A DNA stretch of 39,604 nt from a virus: IMG/VR virus record IMGVR_UViG_3300033149_002950, positions 1-39,604 of that record, one strand, 5' to 3'. Position numbers and translations under genes: made by a program. Under the pieces are notes generated by a model that was not told the DNA's origin, did no database searches, and was given only the letters and a program-made list of their open reading frames with translations. Numbering within the stretch: position 1 is the first letter of the stretch; the number at the start of each line of letters is the position of its first letter. This document shows positions 9,261-39,604 of the stretch, one piece after another.

Positions 9261-12127
9261 ACTGCAACCTCTACTAATTTCATTAGCGTGAAATAGGCTT
9301 TATTTTTGAATCCAGTTTCTTCATGTATATATTCCCCGGTAGCATTCTCTATTATATCGACAACCCTATATTTTCTCCCCTCGCGCATTATTACTTCAGC
9401 TTCCTCGGCCCCAAATATCGGTTCCATATCTACTGCCGTGAATTGTTTTATCTCAAATACAATATTGTTTCCTTCTTCACCATAACTTGCAAATTCATAT
9501 GCAACCTCTGGCTTTTTTGAAGCACTAGACATAGCACGCCACTGAAGCTCTTTTGAATCGACCAATTTGGTATAATCTTCATATGACAAATTATATAGAC
9601 CACGATAAATAGTACCTTGATATTGTCCATCCTTCTCTAATGCACTGATCATACTCTCTGTAATATCCTTTGTTTGTTTATATAATTCCTTTGAATATTT
9701 TTTAATAAATTCATTTTTACTCAATCTTTGGAAATCTCTTATTTTACTATATCCAGAACTCTGCCAATATTTTGCTACCTTTATTTCCTTCGGCGTCAAA
9801 TTCTTCAACCATTCCTCTGGTGCCACTTTTTGTGGCCCAATTACTACCTTAGATATTTTAGTGCTCACCCTCGGCTTTCGACCCCCTGGCCCAAACTGTT
9901 GTTTGGTACCAGGGGGAATCCCATCTATTTCAAACTCCTCGCCACGTACAATCGGAATAACAAGCGTTCGACATTGATAATGCCACGGGGGCCAACCGAA
10001 AGAATCCAACTCCTCTTTCGATAATACTTTCCCATCCATGCTCATACATAAATCTGTCGTATTATCATCAAGAACAGCACTCACCTGATATGCTTCGATA
10101 TAATCAATTACATCAGGATCGATAAAACTTGCTCTACGCCCCTCGTTATATGCTTCCGAAAGATTCGTTCGGACAATATTCTCCACTCTATATGGAGCAC
10201 TCAATTTGCCGTTTCTTATTTCACCAGTCTGTATATATCCATCGAATATGCGCCTTATCTCGGCCTGAGAATATGCAATATCACCTTTCTGTAGACCACG
10301 CAATATGGCCGCTTTCGATTCGGCCAGTATTTTTTCTTTTTCAATACCCGCTATGAGGAATGCTTTATTTCTATAATTTGCTATTTCAGCCGGTTTGATT
10401 CCAATCCCCTTGGACTTGAAATGTTTGATCGCCTCGCGTGGGGGAACCGGCTCAAGCAAAATATCCGCGAAACGATCCACAGCAAATTTATCCGCGAGAG
10501 TGTCCTTCACCTCGCGCCATCCCTCATAGCGGGCATTCAAATATGACGTGACTAATGCATTCACTAATAGTTCTTTTACCTTCGAAACCTTCGGTAGCCT
10601 GAGTTTCCAGATTGCCTTATTGTTTTTCTCCTCTATCCATTTCCGCGCCAGTTTAAGTACCGCATCCCTCTGCAATATCGCAATCTCACTCCATTCATTT
10701 ATCGTCGCTTCTTCCAACGCATCCCATGCATCTACTATTTCAGAGAAATTTACCTTCGCTTCATAATCAGTAAAAGCGCGCATTGTAAAATGATCGGCAT
10801 TTTTTTCTATCTCATTCTGGGGGACCTCAGATCGAGGAATCATAACCTTCTTTTTTGAAGATTCTACCTCAGAACTTTTATACTGCGGAGCATTGAGCAT
10901 CTTATGTACCCATTCCCTTGTCTCATCTGTGGGGACTGTAACCCCCTTCTCGATCGCCGTATAATAACTGGCAAGAATTTCAAGCCTATCTTCCATTGTG
11001 AGAGGCTCAAAATTAAATCTCGGTGCCGAATATTGCGCGCCGAAATTCATGGCAACAAGAGGTTCTATCACTTGTTCACCTATTACACGCTGCAGATCTT
11101 CACCCATCGCACGAAGAACCCAAAGAAAAACATCGAAATGTTTCTTCCCAAGCGCATAACTTCCGGTGGGCTTCGCGCTAATTCCAAGCAGATCAGGAAT
11201 GAGAACAGAACGAGCCATCTTGATATCAAACGAATCAATAGAATCCCTATAAACCGACCCTCCAACGCCATTGCTCTCGAACACACTTATATCAACCGTA
11301 TTGGGTATCATTATTGATGTCTTACCACTTATATGGTCAATAATATCCTTGAGATTGCTCCTTTGCTTATCATCAAGATGTTCATGTTTGGCGACAACAA
11401 ATCCGCCAGCTAAACGCTCCAGAAATATCAACCAGAAACGCAGACCATATTTTTTACCTATATACCACTTATAAGCTTTTGTTATATCAGATTTGCCATA
11501 TGGATTTCCCCATTGAGAGTTGTTCACATAATGAACGAATTTATCACGCGGCAGTTTTTTTCTAAAACTCGATGTCGTAGAATTTATAATTCCATAGGCA
11601 GCGACACGTTTACCTTGATCGAGTTCAAATTCATAATGATGGGGGTTCTGAGGAATGAAATCACAATAAGCATATTTGCCCTTCCATTTCCCAAAGTCGA
11701 TATATTTGAGAACCTTTTCAGACAATGAAAAACCATATGGTAATGCCGAATATGTATGTCTCAAGAAATCTCTGATGCCGGTATAAGGATAATCAAATAA
11801 CGCCCACCGAATAAATTCGGCTATTCTCATATCTTCATTGCTATCAGATACCGGCTCTATAACCGGGGGCGTAGCAAGCCGGGCGTTTATTTTCATGTTT
11901 ATATATGAACCGAGTGCATCATCATTTAGCATTTCATCAATGATATCTAATGTCTTATTATTAATAAGATCGTCAGGGTTGGTAAGGATACCGTCCAATA
12001 TAGCATCATCAGCCCATGCACCCAATGCCATTTCAGTATCGATATGTTGTTTGTCTTTCTCGGCAATGGCAGCACTTCTTGCCGCACCCCCTAATTTCTC
12101 ACGAAATGTTTGTATGATATTAAGCAT
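9257..12127 (-). CDS. portal-MuF fusion with C-terminal ADP-ribosyltransferase-like domain
   Basis: 956 aa, ATG at 12127 overlapping the TerL stop. Residues about 1-480 are a Mu gp29/DUF935-type portal (YKWYIGKKYGLRFWLIFLER; RSVLIPDLLGISAKPTGSYA). Residues about 590-730 are a MuF minor-head domain: VRTNLSEAYNEGRR, then SAVLDDNTTDLC at 683-694 and HYQCRTLVIPI at 716-726. From about 790 the pattern of an ADP-ribosyltransferase follows: R842 in GTIYRG, an MSSASKKPEVAYEFA serine segment at 866-880, and E909-A-E911 in EAEVIMREGRKYRVV as the E-x-E motif. Portal and MuF are usually separate genes. ART tails occur on MuF polymorphic proteins, and T4 Alt is an injected virion ART. No frameshift is visible. 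Confidence 0.87.
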   Translation of the reverse strand: MLNIIQTFREKLGGAARSAAIAEKDKQHIDTEMALGAWADDAILDGILTNPDDLINNKTLDIIDEMLNDDALGSYINMKINARLATPPVIEPVSDSNEDMRIAEFIRWALFDYPYTGIRDFLRHTYSALPYGFSLSEKVLKYIDFGKWKGKYAYCDFIPQNPHHYEFELDQGKRVAAYGIINSTTSSFRKKLPRDKFVHYVNNSQWGNPYGKSDITKAYKWYIGKKYGLRFWLIFLERLAGGFVVAKHEHLDDKQRSNLKDIIDHISGKTSIMIPNTVDISVFESNGVGGSVYRDSIDSFDIKMARSVLIPDLLGISAKPTGSYALGKKHFDVFLWVLRAMGEDLQRVIGEQVIEPLVAMNFGAQYSAPRFNFEPLTMEDRLEILASYYTAIEKGVTVPTDETREWVHKMLNAPQYKSSEVESSKKKVMIPRSEVPQNEIEKNADHFTMRAFTDYEAKVNFSEIVDAWDALEEATINEWSEIAILQRDAVLKLARKWIEEKNNKAIWKLRLPKVSKVKELLVNALVTSYLNARYEGWREVKDTLADKFAVDRFADILLEPVPPREAIKHFKSKGIGIKPAEIANYRNKAFLIAGIEKEKILAESKAAILRGLQKGDIAYSQAEIRRIFDGYIQTGEIRNGKLSAPYRVENIVRTNLSEAYNEGRRASFIDPDVIDYIEAYQVSAVLDDNTTDLCMSMDGKVLSKEELDSFGWPPWHYQCRTLVIPIVRGEEFEIDGIPPGTKQQFGPGGRKPRVSTKISKVVIGPQKVAPEEWLKNLTPKEIKVAKYWQSSGYSKIRDFQRLSKNEFIKKYSKELYKQTKDITESMISALEKDGQYQGTIYRGLYNLSYEDYTKLVDSKELQWRAMSSASKKPEVAYEFASYGEEGNNIVFEIKQFTAVDMEPIFGAEEAEVIMREGRKYRVVDIIENATGEYIHEETGFKNKAYFTLMKLVEVAV

Positions 12128-19843: not shown

Positions 19844-20189
19844 TCTCTTCTGCCTCCAACCTCTCAGCGACCTGACGAATGTATTCGGTCATGGCTTCCG
19901 CGTTTTCGCGTGTTCTATTTTCATCGTATTTTAACCATAGTCCATTGCAGCATAGAATCGTGTCGCAAAAATAATCTATTTGAGGATTGCCTAATGGGCA
20001 GTAGTAGTCAGAGTTAACGATGCTGAATGAGCAGCATTTTCTGCATGCTGGGCACTCTATAGAGTTCCGCTCTTCAAAAATCCCCGCCTCATTCAACTCT
20101 TGATGATGCTCATAGCAAGCCCTGATTGTCTCCGCCCAGGATTTCTTCGACCAGTCGGTTTCCAGGATTCTTTCCCGCGTCCATTTCAT
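19830..20189 (-). CDS. WTRERI/AETIRACYEHH protein, copy 1 of 3
   Basis: 119 aa, ATG at 20189. It begins WTRERILETDWSKKSWAETI and continues ACYEHHQELNEAGIF, ECPACRKC, YYCPLG, CCNGLWLKYD and ENAEAMTEYIRQVAERLEAE. Two further copies lie at 25533-25913 and 25910-26290. Three Cys pairs suggest a zinc ribbon between two helical ends. Family function unknown. This copy lies more than 5 kb from the other two, between small Cys proteins and the methyltransferase. Confidence 0.75.
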   Translation of the reverse strand: MKWTRERILETDWSKKSWAETIRACYEHHQELNEAGIFEERNSIECPACRKCCSFSIVNSDYYCPLGNPQIDYFCDTILCCNGLWLKYDENRTRENAEAMTEYIRQVAERLEAEENDST

Positions 20190-25549: not shown

Positions 25550-25913
25550 TTTTGCCCTCTCTTTCTCTTAATTCAAGCCATTTCAAAACCCCTTTTATAT
25601 ATTTAAGCATTGCTTCTGCTGTCTCTCGATTAGGATTATCATCATATTCTAACCATAAGCCATCACAACAATCTATATCGCCCTCCTCACAATTAAAATC
25701 TTTTTCGGGAGATGCAAGGGGGCAATAGGAAGTTTTATTAGTTTTTATAACTTTCAGGCATGCCGGACATTCTTCTCCGGTTCGTCCTTCAAAAATCCCC
25801 ACCTCATTGAGTTCTTTATGATGCTCATAACACGCCATGATCGTCTCGGCCCAGGTCTTCTTCGACCAATCAGTTTCCCGTATTCTCTCCCGCGTCCAAT
25901 ATAAATTTTTCAT
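25533..25913 (-). CDS. WTRERI/AETIRACYEHH protein, copy 2 of 3
   Basis: 126 aa, start at 25913 overlapping copy 3 (ATGA). WTRERIRETDWSKKTWAETI, ACYEHHKELNEVGIF, ECPACLKV, SYCPLAS, CCDGLWLEYDDN, ETAEAMLKYIKGVLKWLELR. The Cys pairs are kept, so all copies may fold as zinc ribbons. It stands in tandem with copy 3 but has diverged in the middle, so the duplication is not recent. Confidence 0.75.
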   Translation of the reverse strand: MKNLYWTRERIRETDWSKKTWAETIMACYEHHKELNEVGIFEGRTGEECPACLKVIKTNKTSYCPLASPEKDFNCEEGDIDCCDGLWLEYDDNPNRETAEAMLKYIKGVLKWLELREREGKNGNDK

Positions 25914-26290
25914 TTTTCCTTTCTTGTTTTCTTGGCGGATTTCATCTCTTCCGCCTCCAGCTTCTCGGCGACCCGGCGGATGTACTCCGTCATGGCTTCC
26001 GCATTTTCAGGAGTGCGGTCGAGATCATACTTTAACCAGAGACCATTGCAGCAAGTTTTTGCATCACATCTGCCACCATTTTCCCCTGATAACGGGCAAT
26101 ATCTGCTATTATTATCATATGGATCGTATGACCAGGCCTTTTGACATGCTGGACTATCGTCTTCAAACCGATCCTCGAATATTCCCGCTTCGTTCAATTC
26201 TTTATCATGCTCATAGCAGGCCCTGATTGTCTCCGCCCAGCTCTTTTCCGACCAGTCAGTTTCCAGGATTCTTTCCCGCGTCCATTTCAT
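25910..26290 (-). CDS. WTRERI/AETIRACYEHH protein, copy 3 of 3
   Basis: 126 aa, ATG at 26290 with AAAGGAG. WTRERILETDWSEKSWAETI, ACYEHDKELNEAGIF, SPACQKAWS (first Cys of one pair lost), RYCPLSGENGG, TCCNGLWLKYD and ENAEAMTEYIRRVAEKLEAE. The ends are closest to copy 1, while the central cysteine region differs. It is the first gene after the paired hairpins at 26311-26443, which may control this operon. Confidence 0.75.
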   Translation of the reverse strand: MKWTRERILETDWSEKSWAETIRACYEHDKELNEAGIFEDRFEDDSPACQKAWSYDPYDNNSRYCPLSGENGGRCDAKTCCNGLWLKYDLDRTPENAEAMTEYIRRVAEKLEAEEMKSAKKTRKEK

Positions 26291-26752: not shown

Positions 26753-26826
26753 TGGAAACCTCCATGCGATGTCATATCTTTATTGCACGTTCTCAAAACG
26801 AGTATCTCGCTTTTTTTGAGTTTCAT
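26725..26826 (-). pseudogene. 33-aa truncated DUF7666-like fragment
   Basis: ATG at 26826 with TGGAGG. KKSEILVLRTCNKDMTSHGG then FQWPMSGYV matches the opening of a longer phage family (LRTC..DMTSHGGFQWP.SG), but a stop follows at residue 34. Either a decayed gene or a minimal surviving domain. A run of seven A near the start is a possible slippage point. Confidence 0.5.
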
Positions 26827-26851
26827 TGTCTTGCCTCCATGTATCTCTTTC

Positions 26852-27130
26852 TCAGATCACTATCTTATAAAAAATGTAAGCACCACAATGCGGGCACATT
26901 AGATAATTTTTCTCATCCTCTGTTTCCGCAATTTTTCTTGATTCTCCCCAGGGGCTACAGGAGCAACAACCTGGATAACCGCATAACTTTTTCCAAGCGC
27001 GATACATAGCCGCTCTCTCCGCGGGAGTAATTGTGCCTTTTATCCAGGCACGGTGTATTCTTTTCCGCTCCTCCGGTGAATACTTGGTTCGATGCTTAGT
27101 TAAATGAAATTTATTTTCAATTGTATACAT
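26852..27130 (-). CDS. SPEERKRIHRAW Cys protein, copy 1 of 2
   Basis: 92 aa, ATG at 27130, weak ribosome site. KYSPEERKRIHRAWIKGTIT, PAERAAMYRAWKKLCGYPGC then CSCSPWGES and a C-terminal CPHC pair. The central 50 residues match the protein at 29147-29380. The clustered cysteines suggest a metal-binding knuckle. Function unknown. Confidence 0.68.
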   Translation of the reverse strand: MYTIENKFHLTKHRTKYSPEERKRIHRAWIKGTITPAERAAMYRAWKKLCGYPGCCSCSPWGESRKIAETEDEKNYLMCPHCGAYIFYKIVI

Positions 27131-27134
27131 AGCA

Positions 27135-27593
27135 CTACTTAAAGCTCAATCCTGGGAATTGATTGATCGGCGGCCCAGCTTGAGGGAGCTGATGGCACGC
27201 TGGAGGTAGGACTGGACCGCCGAAAAACGAGGAGACGTTTGGCTGGATTCCACACCCAGCACCGGGCAAGTATTGAGCCCTGTTATCACAATCCCGGCAG
27301 AGATTGTTTTTACTCCGTTGCTGCTGCAACACAAACGCCTCCAAACTGTTAGAGGTGCCTGGCCGGATTCTCACCGACACACTAATACCTCCCAACGTTA
27401 CCCCGTTGGCGGGGTTAACATTAATCGCCTTAGATCCACCTTCTCGAACTCGTTGTCCTTGAGAACCAGGGGTTGCGATCCTTTCTGGCTCTTGTAACAA
27501 CGTTCTCTGGATGGAGGCGGCCCTTTCTGGCTCTCGCCATACTTGGGACTTTTCGCGCCCGAGGATTTTGAGCGCAGATGCGTTTTGCCGCAT
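27135..27593 (-). CDS. doubtful ORF over structured DNA
   Basis: 152 aa from the ATG at 27593 (GAGGTG six bases upstream). The same frame is open further upstream through the terminator-pseudoknot, which makes an earlier start unlikely. It contains CRDCDNRAQYLPGAGCG and a Gly/Pro/Gln-rich tail (FFGGPVLPPACHQLPQAGPP). Hairpins are frequent throughout: a 9-bp stem near 27397-27419, GTTGC/GCAAC near 27318, and H3. A second frame (27398-27607, starting MRCLRCGKTH) is also open, so coding status is uncertain. Confidence 0.35.
   Translation of the reverse strand: MRQNASALKILGREKSQVWREPERAASIQRTLLQEPERIATPGSQGQRVREGGSKAINVNPANGVTLGGISVSVRIRPGTSNSLEAFVLQQQRSKNNLCRDCDNRAQYLPGAGCGIQPNVSSFFGGPVLPPACHQLPQAGPPINQFPGLSFK
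27168..27222 (-). ncRNA. long hairpin element H3
   Basis: Arms 27168-27178 and 27212-27222 pair over 11 bp as minus-strand RNA (CGGCGGUCCAG / CUGGGCCGCCG), with a U-G pair at the same place as in H2. The outer pair is C-G here and G-C in H2, and the inner pairs also differ yet remain complementary. The 33-nt loop starts UCCUACCUCC. It lies inside the doubtful ORF. Confidence 0.55.
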
Positions 27594-27607
27594 CGCAGGC
27601 ACCTCAT

Positions 27608-27697
27608 AAAAAAGCACCAGGCGGGAACCGCGACTAGCGTATTTCTCGCTAGATGTAGTAACCTGGTGCTCAAAAACTTTATGTCTTGCGGTTCCCG
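27608..27697 (-). ncRNA. pseudoknotted RNA ending in an intrinsic terminator
   Basis: Minus-strand order: P1 CGGGAACCGC (27697-27688), linker, P2 AGCACCAGG (27670-27662), hairpin P3 CTAGCG/CGCTAG (27652-27647 and 27639-27634), P1' GCGGTTCCCG (27631-27622), P2' CCTGGTGCT (27621-27613), then five more T (27612-27608). P1 (10 bp) and P2 (9 bp) are perfect and interleave as an H-type pseudoknot with P1' and P2' directly abutting. The T-run after P2' makes P2 a terminator stem. A TTGACA at 27759-27754 could start the transcript, though its -10 is poor. Confidence 0.7.
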
Positions 27698-27774
27698 TTC
27701 TCATTCTTTTTTTCTCCAATCTCCAGACATATCGTCCCTACTTATTCATTTCGTGTCAACAGTAAATTTGCGGT

Positions 27775-27909
27775 TCAATGTTCCTTCAGCATATGCCGTG
27801 CCAAAGCATATTTCCGACAGAAGTTAAAAGAACAACCGCGTATTCTTTTAATTATCAACACACATTTGCAGATGGGACATTGAACAGTTGATTTGTAATT
27901 ACTAGCCAT
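27775..27909 (-). CDS. 44-aa C2H2 zinc-finger-like protein
   Basis: ATG at 27909 behind AAGGAG at six bases. VQCPICKCVLIIKRIRGCSF then NFCRKYALARHMLKEH gives C-x2-C followed by H-x4-H, with extra Cys residues, as in a small finger. Too short for usual gene calling. Candidate DNA- or RNA-binding regulator, directly upstream of the pseudoknot RNA. Confidence 0.68.
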   Translation of the reverse strand: MASNYKSTVQCPICKCVLIIKRIRGCSFNFCRKYALARHMLKEH

Positions 27910-27923
27910 CTTTTTCTCCTTTT

Positions 27924-28163
27924 TCATAGCTCGATGACCTTGACCTCGCGGAAGTCGAAGCCCTTGAGAATAGTGTCGAACGCCCAGCTATCGAAACCGA
28001 TTAATACATTCCCTGTGGATGTCTCATAGGCTTCAACATATTCTACCACCTGGAGTAATTTTTCGGCCGTTAAATCGTTTGCTCGAACAGCTATTTCAAT
28101 AAACCGATCCTCGCTCACTTCGACGAGCGTAAACTCCGGACACTCCATGATTCTGTGCTTCAT
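27924..28163 (-). CDS. small hypothetical protein
   Basis: 79 aa, ATG at 28163 with AAAGGAT. Acidic alpha/beta pattern (EFTLVEVSEDRFIEIAVRAN; NVLIGFDSWAFDTILKGFDF). Not recognised; no metal or membrane motif. Confidence 0.65.
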   Translation of the reverse strand: MKHRIMECPEFTLVEVSEDRFIEIAVRANDLTAEKLLQVVEYVEAYETSTGNVLIGFDSWAFDTILKGFDFREVKVIEL

Positions 28164-28176
28164 TACAACTTATCCT

Positions 28177-28353
28177 TTACTTGATCTCGCAATCCTCATA
28201 GTGCTCGGAGTAATGCTGAATCGCTTCAGCGAGTGCCTCACGTACTGGCGCACAACGTATCGCGGCGATCAAGATATTTTCAAATCGCTGGTTACCCTCA
28301 CCGCCAATACTATCCAGCAGTTCCTCAAATGCTCGTTTGGTTTCCCGTCTCAT
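28177..28353 (-). CDS. small helical hypothetical protein
   Basis: 58 aa from the ATG at 28353, which has GGAGGTAG upstream; the longer frame lies inside the preceding gene. Helical throughout (RRETKRAFEELLDSIGGEG; VREALAEAIQHYSEHYEDCE). Not recognised. Confidence 0.6.
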   Translation of the reverse strand: MRRETKRAFEELLDSIGGEGNQRFENILIAAIRCAPVREALAEAIQHYSEHYEDCEIK

Positions 28354-28372
28354 TTTACTACCTCCATTTATC

Positions 28373-28777
28373 TTACTCAAGTAGCGGTGAAAGACCCGCA
28401 CGTTTGCGCGCGAGATCGCATATCTCATTCGCCATTTTCCATTTCCTGTCAGACGCCCATCGATAATGATCGAGGGCATAAACGGTGACCTCGCCGGTGG
28501 GATCGAATCCTCGATGATAGGCCGCCTTCAACTCATCAAGATGATACTCCATATTTTTCCGAGCTTGTGCCTCAGAATCTTTCCATCGACGCAGGTTTCC
28601 CGCAATTAGAATTTTAACTAGCGCGCTGGGGATGCTTACCGCTTCCCCTTCCATATTCAAAAATGGCCCCCAATCGGAGCCATCATGCTCAGAACATACA
28701 GACCAGATTTCTCCTGGCCCATAGACATGTCTACCAGTTCGGGGACTGAATACTACGATATTTTTTTCGTCGCTCAT
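28373..28777 (-). CDS. hypothetical protein
   Basis: 134 aa, ATG at 28777 with GGGGAGGTAG. An N-terminal beta region (NIVVFSPRTGRHVYGPGEIW) is followed by a helical half (AQARKNMEYHLDELKAAYHR; NEICDLARKRAGLSPLLE). Not recognised. Confidence 0.65.
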   Translation of the reverse strand: MSDEKNIVVFSPRTGRHVYGPGEIWSVCSEHDGSDWGPFLNMEGEAVSIPSALVKILIAGNLRRWKDSEAQARKNMEYHLDELKAAYHRGFDPTGEVTVYALDHYRWASDRKWKMANEICDLARKRAGLSPLLE

Positions 28778-28848
28778 TTTTCTACCTCCCCTGTTATTTC
28801 TCTCTCTCGACCTGCCTCGTCAGTACCGGGGCGGTCAACATCCGGTAG

Positions 28849-28868
28849 ACGCTCCCCGAGGGGAGCGT
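28849..28868 (-). other. strong GC hairpin after the 85-aa gene
   Basis: Arms 28849-28857 and 28860-28868 (ACGCTCCCC / GGGGAGCGT) are perfect, with a 2-nt centre. A second stem TACCGG/CCGGTA lies next to it at about 28824-28847. It starts about ten bases past the stop of the 28879-29136 gene. No U-tract, so RNA processing or attenuation rather than a classical terminator. Confidence 0.55.
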
Positions 28869-28878
28869 TTCGGCTGTG

Positions 28879-29136
28879 TCAGCATTGTGAGTCGACGGCC
28901 TCCCGGAAACCACTCCAGTCAACCTCCGCATGGGGTGTGTCCCAGTCAGGCCTCTCGTCCATCGTCGCAGTCGTATAATGCTGTATCCAGGCCGGGGATC
29001 CATCCTCGAAAAACCCACAGATGTATCCGAGGGATGTATCGCTATGATCTACGATTTCTCCGAGGGTTCCAAGGTACTCGAAATCCTCAACTCCTTCACT
29101 CGAACGCCAAACGAGCAATTTGCGCCAGTGTAACAT
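28879..29136 (-). CDS. hypothetical protein
   Basis: 85 aa, ATG at 29136 behind TAGGAGGTAGG. Trp-rich (LHWRKLLVWRSS) with a conserved-looking GYICGFFEDGSPAWIQHY middle. The overlapping frame 28794-29018 lacks a ribosome site and is a shadow. Not recognised. Confidence 0.65.
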   Translation of the reverse strand: MLHWRKLLVWRSSEGVEDFEYLGTLGEIVDHSDTSLGYICGFFEDGSPAWIQHYTTATMDERPDWDTPHAEVDWSGFREAVDSQC

Positions 29137-29146
29137 GTCCTACCTC

Positions 29147-29380
29147 CTAATCGAAATCGACATATCGCCAGTTATTCTCGCTGCGCTCGCCCCATATGTT
29201 GTTGCTGCATCGACAGCCTACGTTTCCACAAAGCTTGCTCCACACCCTATATGCAGCTCGTCTCTCACGCGCGTCGATTTCGCCGGTGTAGTACTCACGA
29301 TGGATACGCACTCTCTCGTCCGGCGAATGCTGCGTGCGGGTCCATGTATTGTGGTATGTGTTTCGTACCATATACGTCAT
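29147..29380 (-). CDS. SPEERKRIHRAW Cys protein, copy 2 of 2
   Basis: 77 aa, ATG at 29380 with AGGAGGTAATG. QHSPDERVRIHREYYTGEID, ARERRAAYRVWSKLCGNVGC then RCSNNIWGE aligns with the protein at 26852-27130 over about 50 residues; the C-terminal CPHC pair of that copy is absent here. Function unknown. Confidence 0.7.
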   Translation of the reverse strand: MTYMVRNTYHNTWTRTQHSPDERVRIHREYYTGEIDARERRAAYRVWSKLCGNVGCRCSNNIWGERSENNWRYVDFD

Positions 29381-29804: not shown

Positions 29805-29895
29805 TTTGCCTACCTCCTGTCTTGCGCCTTCTGCCATCTCTCCTTGCCATCATGCTTATATCACCCTGCATGATCCGTGCCAAAATGTAAGAGCA

Positions 29896-29925
29896 ATAAT
29901 ATCAACAAGTTCCACTATCTCACAA
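29896..29925 (-). promoter_or_regulatory. candidate early promoter
   Basis: Minus strand: TTGTGA (29925-29920), 18-base spacer, TATTAT (29901-29896). It would give a leader of about 85 nt before the 29804 gene. The -35 is imperfect, so activity may depend on an activator; a dyad element (29935-29950) lies just upstream. Confidence 0.45.
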
Positions 29926-29934
29926 AAAATAATC

Positions 29935-30038
29935 GTAAACTTTCATTTACACCAATTGACCCAATTATGGCATAACTAGTGTAACTATAACCGATTAGGA
30001 CAATGTAAACTCTCATTGACATGTAAATAAGAATTGAC
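29935..30038. promoter_or_regulatory. three-copy 16-bp dyad operator array
   Basis: GTAAA-N6-TT(T/G)AC occurs at 29935-29950 (GTAAACTTTCATTTAC), 30005-30020 (GTAAACTCTCATTGAC) and 30023-30038 (GTAAATAAGAATTGAC). The half sites GTAAA/TTTAC are inverted, as for a dimeric repressor. They fill the main gap (29805-30133) between the two transcription blocks. The rest of that gap is AT-rich with no gene. Confidence 0.62.
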
Positions 30039-30133
30039 GGAATTAAAAATTGGAGCAACAATAGGGCAAAAAATTTGATCTAATTTTCAACGCGGGGTAA
30101 ACCATTAATATCAAATATTTCATCAATAACTCG

Positions 30134-38072: not shown

Positions 38073-39604
38073 TTAACTCAACCCCTTTGCCAACCGACGG
38101 GAATATAGATAATCAACAAAACTCTCATTGGCAGCATCCAATTCATCACGATCTATATTGCCATTAATGACCTGCTTAAATGTAATTGCAGCCCCCATAT
38201 TATGCAAACTATCCACCGGGTAAGCCGGATTGAATATATGCTCACCCTCATGGACTAATGCAAGCCCGGTCTCGGGAACAACACCGCCATACTGATATCT
38301 CGGTACATATGCCTCCATACTGGATCGAGCACCCTCAAGAATGCGATTAAGCCCCGCTTTAGCTGCCCCTGCAATCGCTGAACCAATAGCAATTTTTGCT
38401 AGTGCCACAGGATTTGTAAGAGATTCCATTAAAAGTTCCGCTTTAACGCCAATCCATTTCGCAACTATTCGCTTGGTCATTGAATCTATAGCCATTGACA
38501 ATGTACCTATCAATCCCTCCAACATAGCAAGTGCAATATTTTGCGATCCCTTTCGCGTGGAATCAAACAGATTGCTGAATGCTGAATCCCATATATTCTT
38601 CAATGCAAATCCAGCCTCACGCCACATCTTTTGTTTCGCCCGAAGATGTTCCATTTCCTTATCTCTAATAATACCTAATTTCCATAATGCAATGTCAATA
38701 AGGGTATCATAATAATCAGTGGAATCAACTATTTGTTGTTCGCGCTGCTCAGCAAGCCAATCTGTATATTCCTGCATTGTTTCTGGATCAATCCCCAGCA
38801 TTCTCTCCAATGCCACATCATAGGATTCGCCAGTTGATTCAACATCTGGAGGCTTTGACAATGCAGCCATAGCTTCATGCAATTTAGTAGTTGCCTCTTC
38901 TATTAATTTCCTTTTCTCATTGATCATTGCTACTAATCTATCGTAACGAGCCTTCTGATCATCATAATCAATAGCTGTTGGTTCGGGCTTGGGCATTGCC
39001 TTAAACTCAGCCAATAATTTTGCAATTTTCTCTTTAATATTATCAATAAAGTCAGTTAACTTATCTATTTCTGTTTTTATTTGCTCATCACTCAATAATT
39101 CGAACGGCGGTGTTTGGGGCAATTCTTCTCTGCGCTCACCTATAAGTTTCTTGCGTGTTTCTCGTAGTTTATCAAGTTGTTCATTATAGGTAGCGATCAT
39201 ATCATTATATCGCGCAACTTCCCCAATAGTACCAGCGATTGTATCACGTTCCTCTTCAAGAACCGCAATACGATCTCTTACTCTTTTTATTTCCTCATCA
39301 ATTTCCTTTATTGAATTAGGAACGACATTGACAACTTCTCTTGACACCTTAGTCAGATTCTTCATCCATGTAACGAGTGATATAATACCCATAACGGCTA
39401 TACCTATTCCTGCAATCCAACCCGTCACCGGATTTGAAAATATCAATGCGAATTGTGATAAAGCCAGAATTAAACCCGTTCCGCCAACACCACCTCCCAC
39501 CAGAATCATCACAAGTTTTTTGTTCTCTTCAACAAATTGTGCAACCTTGGGAACTATATCAGATAATGCCTTGGCTATCTTTATCAGAAGCGGCAGTATC
39601 GCCT
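38073..39604 (-). CDS. tail tape-measure protein, C-terminal part
   Basis: Continuation of the frame that starts at 784. From the join it contains a hydrophobic stretch (LILALSQFALIFSNP, IAGIGIAVMGIISLVTWM), long coiled coils (KEIDEEIKRVRDRIAVLEEE and others), another hydrophobic segment (PVALAKIAIGSAIAGAAKAG) and a C-terminal GGVVPETGLALVHEGEHIFN motif typical of phage tape measures. Size with the N-terminal part is 733 aa. Confidence 0.93.
   Translation of the reverse strand, partial: AILPLLIKIAKALSDIVPKVAQFVEENKKLVMILVGGGVGGTGLILALSQFALIFSNPVTGWIAGIGIAVMGIISLVTWMKNLTKVSREVVNVVPNSIKEIDEEIKRVRDRIAVLEEERDTIAGTIGEVARYNDMIATYNEQLDKLRETRKKLIGERREELPQTPPFELLSDEQIKTEIDKLTDFIDNIKEKIAKLLAEFKAMPKPEPTAIDYDDQKARYDRLVAMINEKRKLIEEATTKLHEAMAALSKPPDVESTGESYDVALERMLGIDPETMQEYTDWLAEQREQQIVDSTDYYDTLIDIALWKLGIIRDKEMEHLRAKQKMWREAGFALKNIWDSAFSNLFDSTRKGSQNIALAMLEGLIGTLSMAIDSMTKRIVAKWIGVKAELLMESLTNPVALAKIAIGSAIAGAAKAGLNRILEGARSSMEAYVPRYQYGGVVPETGLALVHEGEHIFNPAYPVDSLHNMGAAITFKQVINGNIDRDELDAANESFVDYLYSRRLAKGLS
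39491..39604. repeat. terminal direct repeat, right copy
   Basis: Identical to bases 1-114. Removing it leaves a 39,490-bp circle in which all neighbouring genes join correctly. Confidence 0.97.

Follow-up and report, generated by a model that had tools for sequence, protein, structure and literature searches.

On the minus strand of a small phage genome (IMG/VR record IMGVR_UViG_3300033149_002950), two perfect stems interleave and lead directly into a run of thymines. The question is whether this locus specifies a short RNA closed by its own terminator, as the initial annotation proposed, the beginning of a longer structured RNA, or part of a protein-coding gene. The window, meaning the whole stretch of 39,604 nucleotides that was analysed, carries a 114-bp exact direct repeat at both ends (1-114 and 39491-39604), and this 39.6-kb record is therefore probably a whole phage genome, either circular or with terminal repeats. 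Its identifiable genes, among them a Mu-type portal joined to a head-morphogenesis domain and a terminase with three matches at ~25% identity in the phage collection, all lie on the minus strand, and the locus itself is surrounded by small orphan accessory genes. The following elements make up the knot and its tail:

27697-27688 (-), 5' strand of P1, CGGGAACCGC, 10 bp perfect with 27631-27622
27670-27662 (-), 5' strand of P2, AGCACCAGG, 9 bp perfect with 27621-27613
27652-27647 / 27639-27634 (-), P3 hairpin inside the pseudoknot, CTAGCG / CGCTAG, 6 bp, loop AGAAATA, pair probability 0.96
27631-27622 (-), 3' strand of P1 (P1'), GCGGTTCCCG, adjoining P2'
27621-27613 (-), 3' strand of P2 (P2'), CCTGGTGCT, 9 bp with P2
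27613-27608 (-), T-run (U6), a possible intrinsic terminator tail or linker to the next domain (domain A)

The same three perfect stems described at the outset, of 10, 9 and 6 bp, are found on the minus strand, and their arrangement is as had been claimed: P1 and P2 interleave, P1' ends at 27622 and is directly contiguous with P2', which starts at 27621, and P2' leads straight into six T, the first of which forms the final P2 pair. The earlier judgement that interleaved stems of this length are improbable by chance also holds. When the whole window was dinucleotide-shuffled 100 times, with both strands scanned and the best interleaved perfect pair recorded each time, that pair usually summed to 14-16 bp, and the observed 19 bp (10 + 9) was matched in one shuffle out of the 100, which places it at about the 1% level genome-wide. 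The stem energies are -24.8 for P1 plus P3 and -21.9 for P2 stacking; their simple sum, with a pseudoknot penalty of ~+10 kcal/mol assumed as the usual value, gives a total of ~-37 kcal/mol versus -33.1 for the best nested fold. Because this sum favours the knot, any transcript of the stretch would be likely to adopt it. The three-stem H-type pseudoknot is confirmed as real and unusually clean, and it is present as a single copy, with no tandem repeats of the unit in the window.

Pseudoknots of the H type, usually in tandem repeats, are characteristic of ToxI, the RNA of type III toxin-antitoxin systems. The present locus resembles ToxI in having such a knot followed by a possible terminator, but differs from it in its single copy and in the lack of a neighbouring ToxN-like protein; a PADLOC scan of ten neighbouring ORFs found none, in agreement with what had been noted from the sequence. 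Without a ToxN-family endoribonuclease gene or tandem repeats, the assignment to ToxI is rejected. The covariance search suggested earlier, run with Rfam 15 both across the window (gathering scores) and, with E relaxed to 3, across positions 26800-29000, returned no family at the locus. A known pseudoknot riboswitch is consequently rejected, as are a group I or group II intron (no Rfam match to the intron core or domain V) and membership of the large phage RNA families ROOL and GOLLD (no covariance-model match). A tRNA or tmRNA is rejected likewise, none having been found, and the phage genome has no tRNA genes. Elsewhere, the Rfam search recovered a type II hammerhead ribozyme (RF02276, 48.5 bits versus a gathering score of 37) at 28806-28875 (-), with the core CUGACGA and GAAAC; it lies 1.1 kb upstream of the knot and is flanked by two small genes.

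The sequence that follows the T-run is itself highly structured. Its next 470 bases (27607-27135) contain a perfect long-range helix of 10 bp and further hairpins, which can be resolved into these parts:

27605-27352 (-), domain A, multibranch, closed by the 10-bp helix; z -6.3 to -7.1, with boundaries picked after folding
27605-27596 / 27361-27352 (-), closing helix of domain A, GAGGTGCCTG/CAGGCACCTC, 10 bp perfect, probability 0.98
27539-27528 (-), GNRA hairpin in domain A, TGGC-GAGA-GCCA
27378-27362 (-), T-loop-like hairpin in domain A, GTCGG-TGAGAAT-CCGGC
27342-27231 (-), domain B, 11-bp stem GGAGGCGTTTG/CAAACGTCTCC with four hairpins, probability 0.99, z -5.7, borders likewise set after folding
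27223-27167 (-), domain C, GC-rich 13-bp stem-loop TCGGCGGTCCAGT/GCTGGGCCGCCGA, probability 0.98, z -3.7, borders likewise set after folding
27162-27146 (-), last small hairpin, TCAATTC/GGATTGA, probability 0.56

The first strand of the closing helix, GAGGTGCCTG, begins two bases past the T-run, and its partner CAGGCACCTC lies about 235 nt downstream. Strong structure thus continues right after the T-run, which suggests that the knot is the 5' portion of a longer RNA. For the unit as a whole (27705-27135), the minus strand folds at z -6.8 and the plus strand at -3.0, these values deriving from nested folds that leave P1 out; in 60 tiles of the same length taken from the minus strand, z averages -0.7 (sd 1.5, lowest -4.9), so that the unit lies below all of them, and the part downstream of the T-run reaches -4.9 to -5.5 on its own. 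Within 620 nt there are two perfect helices of 10 bp and one of 9 bp, compared with a chance expectation that we estimate at ~0.1 for helices of at least 10 bp and ~0.5 for those of at least 9 bp. The GC skew is near zero at the locus, as expected for paired RNA, versus clearly strand-biased in most neighbouring genes. The GNRA (GGC-GAGA-GCC) and T-loop-like (GG-TGAGAAT-CC) hairpins resemble known elements of tertiary folds, and in the nested fold no loop-loop tertiary contacts of at least 6 bp are seen. Two hairpins have the string GAATCCRGCC in common and differ in one compensated pair (C-G versus U-A). Domain A also contains a 13-nt exact repeat, AGAGCCAGAAAGG, at 27534-27522 and 27492-27480 (-), 42 nt apart, which extends to 20 nt with three transitions and whose copies pair differently.

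Taken together, these features are best explained by a large structured noncoding phage RNA of ~570 nt, running from about 27705 to 27135 on the minus strand, the pseudoknot forming its 5' domain. With a single sequence in hand it is a candidate, to which we give close to an even chance, and one feature that counts against it is the T-run after P2', which fits a terminator ending the RNA at 27608. In the predicted order, the three-stem H-type pseudoknot would be joined by a short U-rich linker to domain A, followed by domain B and the GC-rich stem-loop. Beyond the stems and the statistics, we infer that a single transcript would cover the whole unit, that it would be transcribed along with the surrounding small accessory genes, and that the pseudoknot would give it a stable cap at the 5' end or a module for folding. 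The T-run may turn P2 into a partial terminator, in which case the whole RNA would be made only in read-through transcripts. During infection the molecule would presumably work as RNA, by itself or together with a protein, by analogy with GOLLD and ROOL.

The ROOL family comprises large phage or prophage RNAs (one example is 659 nt) with a complex fold, several pseudoknots and no known protein partner, whilst GOLLD is a large, ornate phage-encoded RNA, often longer than 800 nt, with a universally conserved 3' region; both are of unknown function, are often found near tRNA islands and assemble into RNA-only cages (PMC12286853). The present candidate, proposed from sequence alone, would be similar to ROOL as a large phage RNA with a complex fold and a pseudoknot, but lacks the tRNA islands often found near ROOL and an Rfam match even at E up to 3. 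It would likewise be comparable to GOLLD as a large ornate phage-encoded RNA, yet it is shorter (~570 nt against often more than 800 nt) and again has neither an Rfam match nor accompanying tRNAs. It may thus work like GOLLD or ROOL whilst not being a member of either family. A possible but doubtful reading is that the ~570-nt unit founds a class of its own among large ornate phage RNAs, one whose 5' domain is a three-stem pseudoknot, which has no sequence relationship to GOLLD, ROOL or OLE and is carried by a phage lineage almost without sequenced kin. To our knowledge, only a few large ornate phage RNAs have been described; if a small phage carried another one, unrelated to these, phages would seem to have turned to such RNAs repeatedly as a strategy, and a short, clonable test example would be available.

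Relatives were sought by several routes. The queries tried with flanking, accessory and portal proteins against 2.9 million viral contigs gave no close kin, and neither the exact P1'-P2'-T string nor the translation of an open frame of 189 codons that spans the unit found anything. With the RNA as blastn query, phages and plasmids gave nothing beyond stretches of 25-35 nt, all with E of 0.5 or worse, a pattern search with the 20-nt internal repeat CRAGAGCCAGAAAGGRYCGC matched unrelated sites only, two samples of ~400 genomes each yielded one 33-nt chance match, and a terminase alignment contributed ten records at ~25% identity, none with the RNA. The unit shows excess folding, and homologues for covariation were not found in the viral, phage and plasmid collections or in the genome sample.

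This outcome bears on one rival, a chance structure without function in an intergenic or decaying stretch. The missing relatives speak for it, and so do other windows of the same genome, inside genes, that reach z of about -5 to -6, because of which folding alone is no proof. Against it, a pseudoknot at the ~1% level genome-wide is joined with the lowest long-range fold z, in a phage otherwise closely packed with ORFs, and we hold chance to be very unlikely. A more serious contender, unlikely all the same, is a short independent RNA of ~115 nt, started from a promoter at TTGACA, folded into the pseudoknot and ended by P2 and the T-run as intrinsic terminator. It would either act as a stable small RNA or terminate the upstream accessory transcript with a knot protecting the 3' end, and if true a neat but ordinary pseudoknotted small RNA. 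The six T immediately after P2' and the compactness and stability of the knot favour it, as does the presence of the hexamer:

27759-27754 (-), TTGACA, a weak candidate for a -35 box, poorly matched by its -10 partner

The hexamer is, however, about 56 bases before P1 and not ~35 as initially stated; 17 bases downstream of it stands GACGAT, which matches a -10 box in only three of six positions and makes the promoter weak, and the promoter scanner did not report the site. The standard terminator scan did not report P2 either, since its loop is ~40 nt long, unusual for a terminator. Strong structure, moreover, starts two bases past the T-run, and the stretch downstream of the run shows its own folding excess. 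Of the compact RNA unit originally proposed, the pseudoknot stands, whereas the independent, terminator-closed transcript is doubtful and the unit probably too short, given the weak promoter and the strong structure right after the T-run. The short RNA is also poorly suited to act as a switch, which would require a mutually exclusive antiterminator: P1 and P2 have no bases in common, and none is seen. Attenuation by a ribosome or a ligand is rejected on the same ground of disjoint strands, and an alternative 8-bp helix touching P2 (TTTTGAGC / GCTCAAAA) is rejected as an attenuator because it lies partly beyond the T-run and cannot act before termination.

The preferred reading of a long noncoding RNA also has to be weighed against two coding explanations, which concern these elements:

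27730-27701 (-), mini-ORF MSGDWRKKE*, 9 codons, taken as the zero frame
27713-27707 (-), A7 run (A AAA AAA), 9 nt before P1 and in frame with the mini-ORF, probably incidental
27704-27135 (-), open frame of 189 codons beginning with ATG, spanning the whole unit, probably not a gene

The long frame could be a real, fast-evolving accessory gene whose initiation is controlled by the pseudoknot in its first codons, P1 starting 7 nt after the A of ATG 27704. Under dinucleotide shuffling, the chance that the sense strand holds so long a frame without a stop is P=0.0027, which counts as evidence for a gene; a good ribosome site, GGAG, lies 9 nt before the ATG, the stop of the mini-ORF overlaps the ATG (ATGA), and two sequence repeats inside the region (offsets 42 and 120) keep the reading frame. 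Against this, the amino-acid composition equals that of random codons (ln ratio -28.4, versus -5 to +12 in 12 neighbouring accessory ORFs), the acidic content is among the lowest of all ORFs listed, and the codon score falls at the 2nd percentile of phage genes and in the mid-range among spurious frames. The codon-position contrast is no better than in random open frames (P=0.13), and no protein relatives appear in Pfam, PHROGs, NCBIfam, PADLOC, PDB, phages or plasmids. AlphaFold does not discriminate, since its model of the frame (mean pLDDT 39.5) is poor, but the control, a neighbouring orphan, fares no better (42.7). On balance the frame is noncoding, in keeping with the doubt first cast on it, and a real gene is decidedly improbable. 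Three-stem -1 frameshift pseudoknots are known from coronavirus frameshift elements, and the same order of P1, P2, P3 hairpin, P1' and P2' is found here, so that a cassette could be imagined in which ribosomes pass from the mini-ORF into the 189-codon frame at A7. The slippery heptamer lies within the usual 5-9 nt of the pseudoknot (9-nt spacer), and phase and stop codon are also in place. Unlike in the coronavirus elements, the zero frame holds no gene of substantial size and the coding signal is absent past the shift; two real overlapping coding frames are therefore not found, the -1 frame is equipped with a start and a ribosome site of its own, and the minus strand holds 15 A7 runs. Programmed frameshifting is ranked low because of the nine-codon zero frame and the signal-free shifted frame, and is highly improbable, the least probable of all these readings.

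Several other observations concern the neighbourhood. Two paralogous small Cys-containing proteins with 49% identity (26852-27130 and 29147-29380, -), with no relatives found elsewhere, flank the ribozyme and the RNA region. A 24-nt inverted repeat, 88% complementary, lies in the portal gene (10339-10362 / 10518-10541), where the window 10321-10574 has a z of ~-5.5. Three 141-nt repeats with 79% identity (20043-20183, 25758-25898 and 26144-26284) come from paralogous accessory genes. Finally, the AT-rich intergenic stretch 29840-30130, upstream of accessory genes, contains several GTTTAC / GTAAA motifs and may be an operator, promoter or origin.
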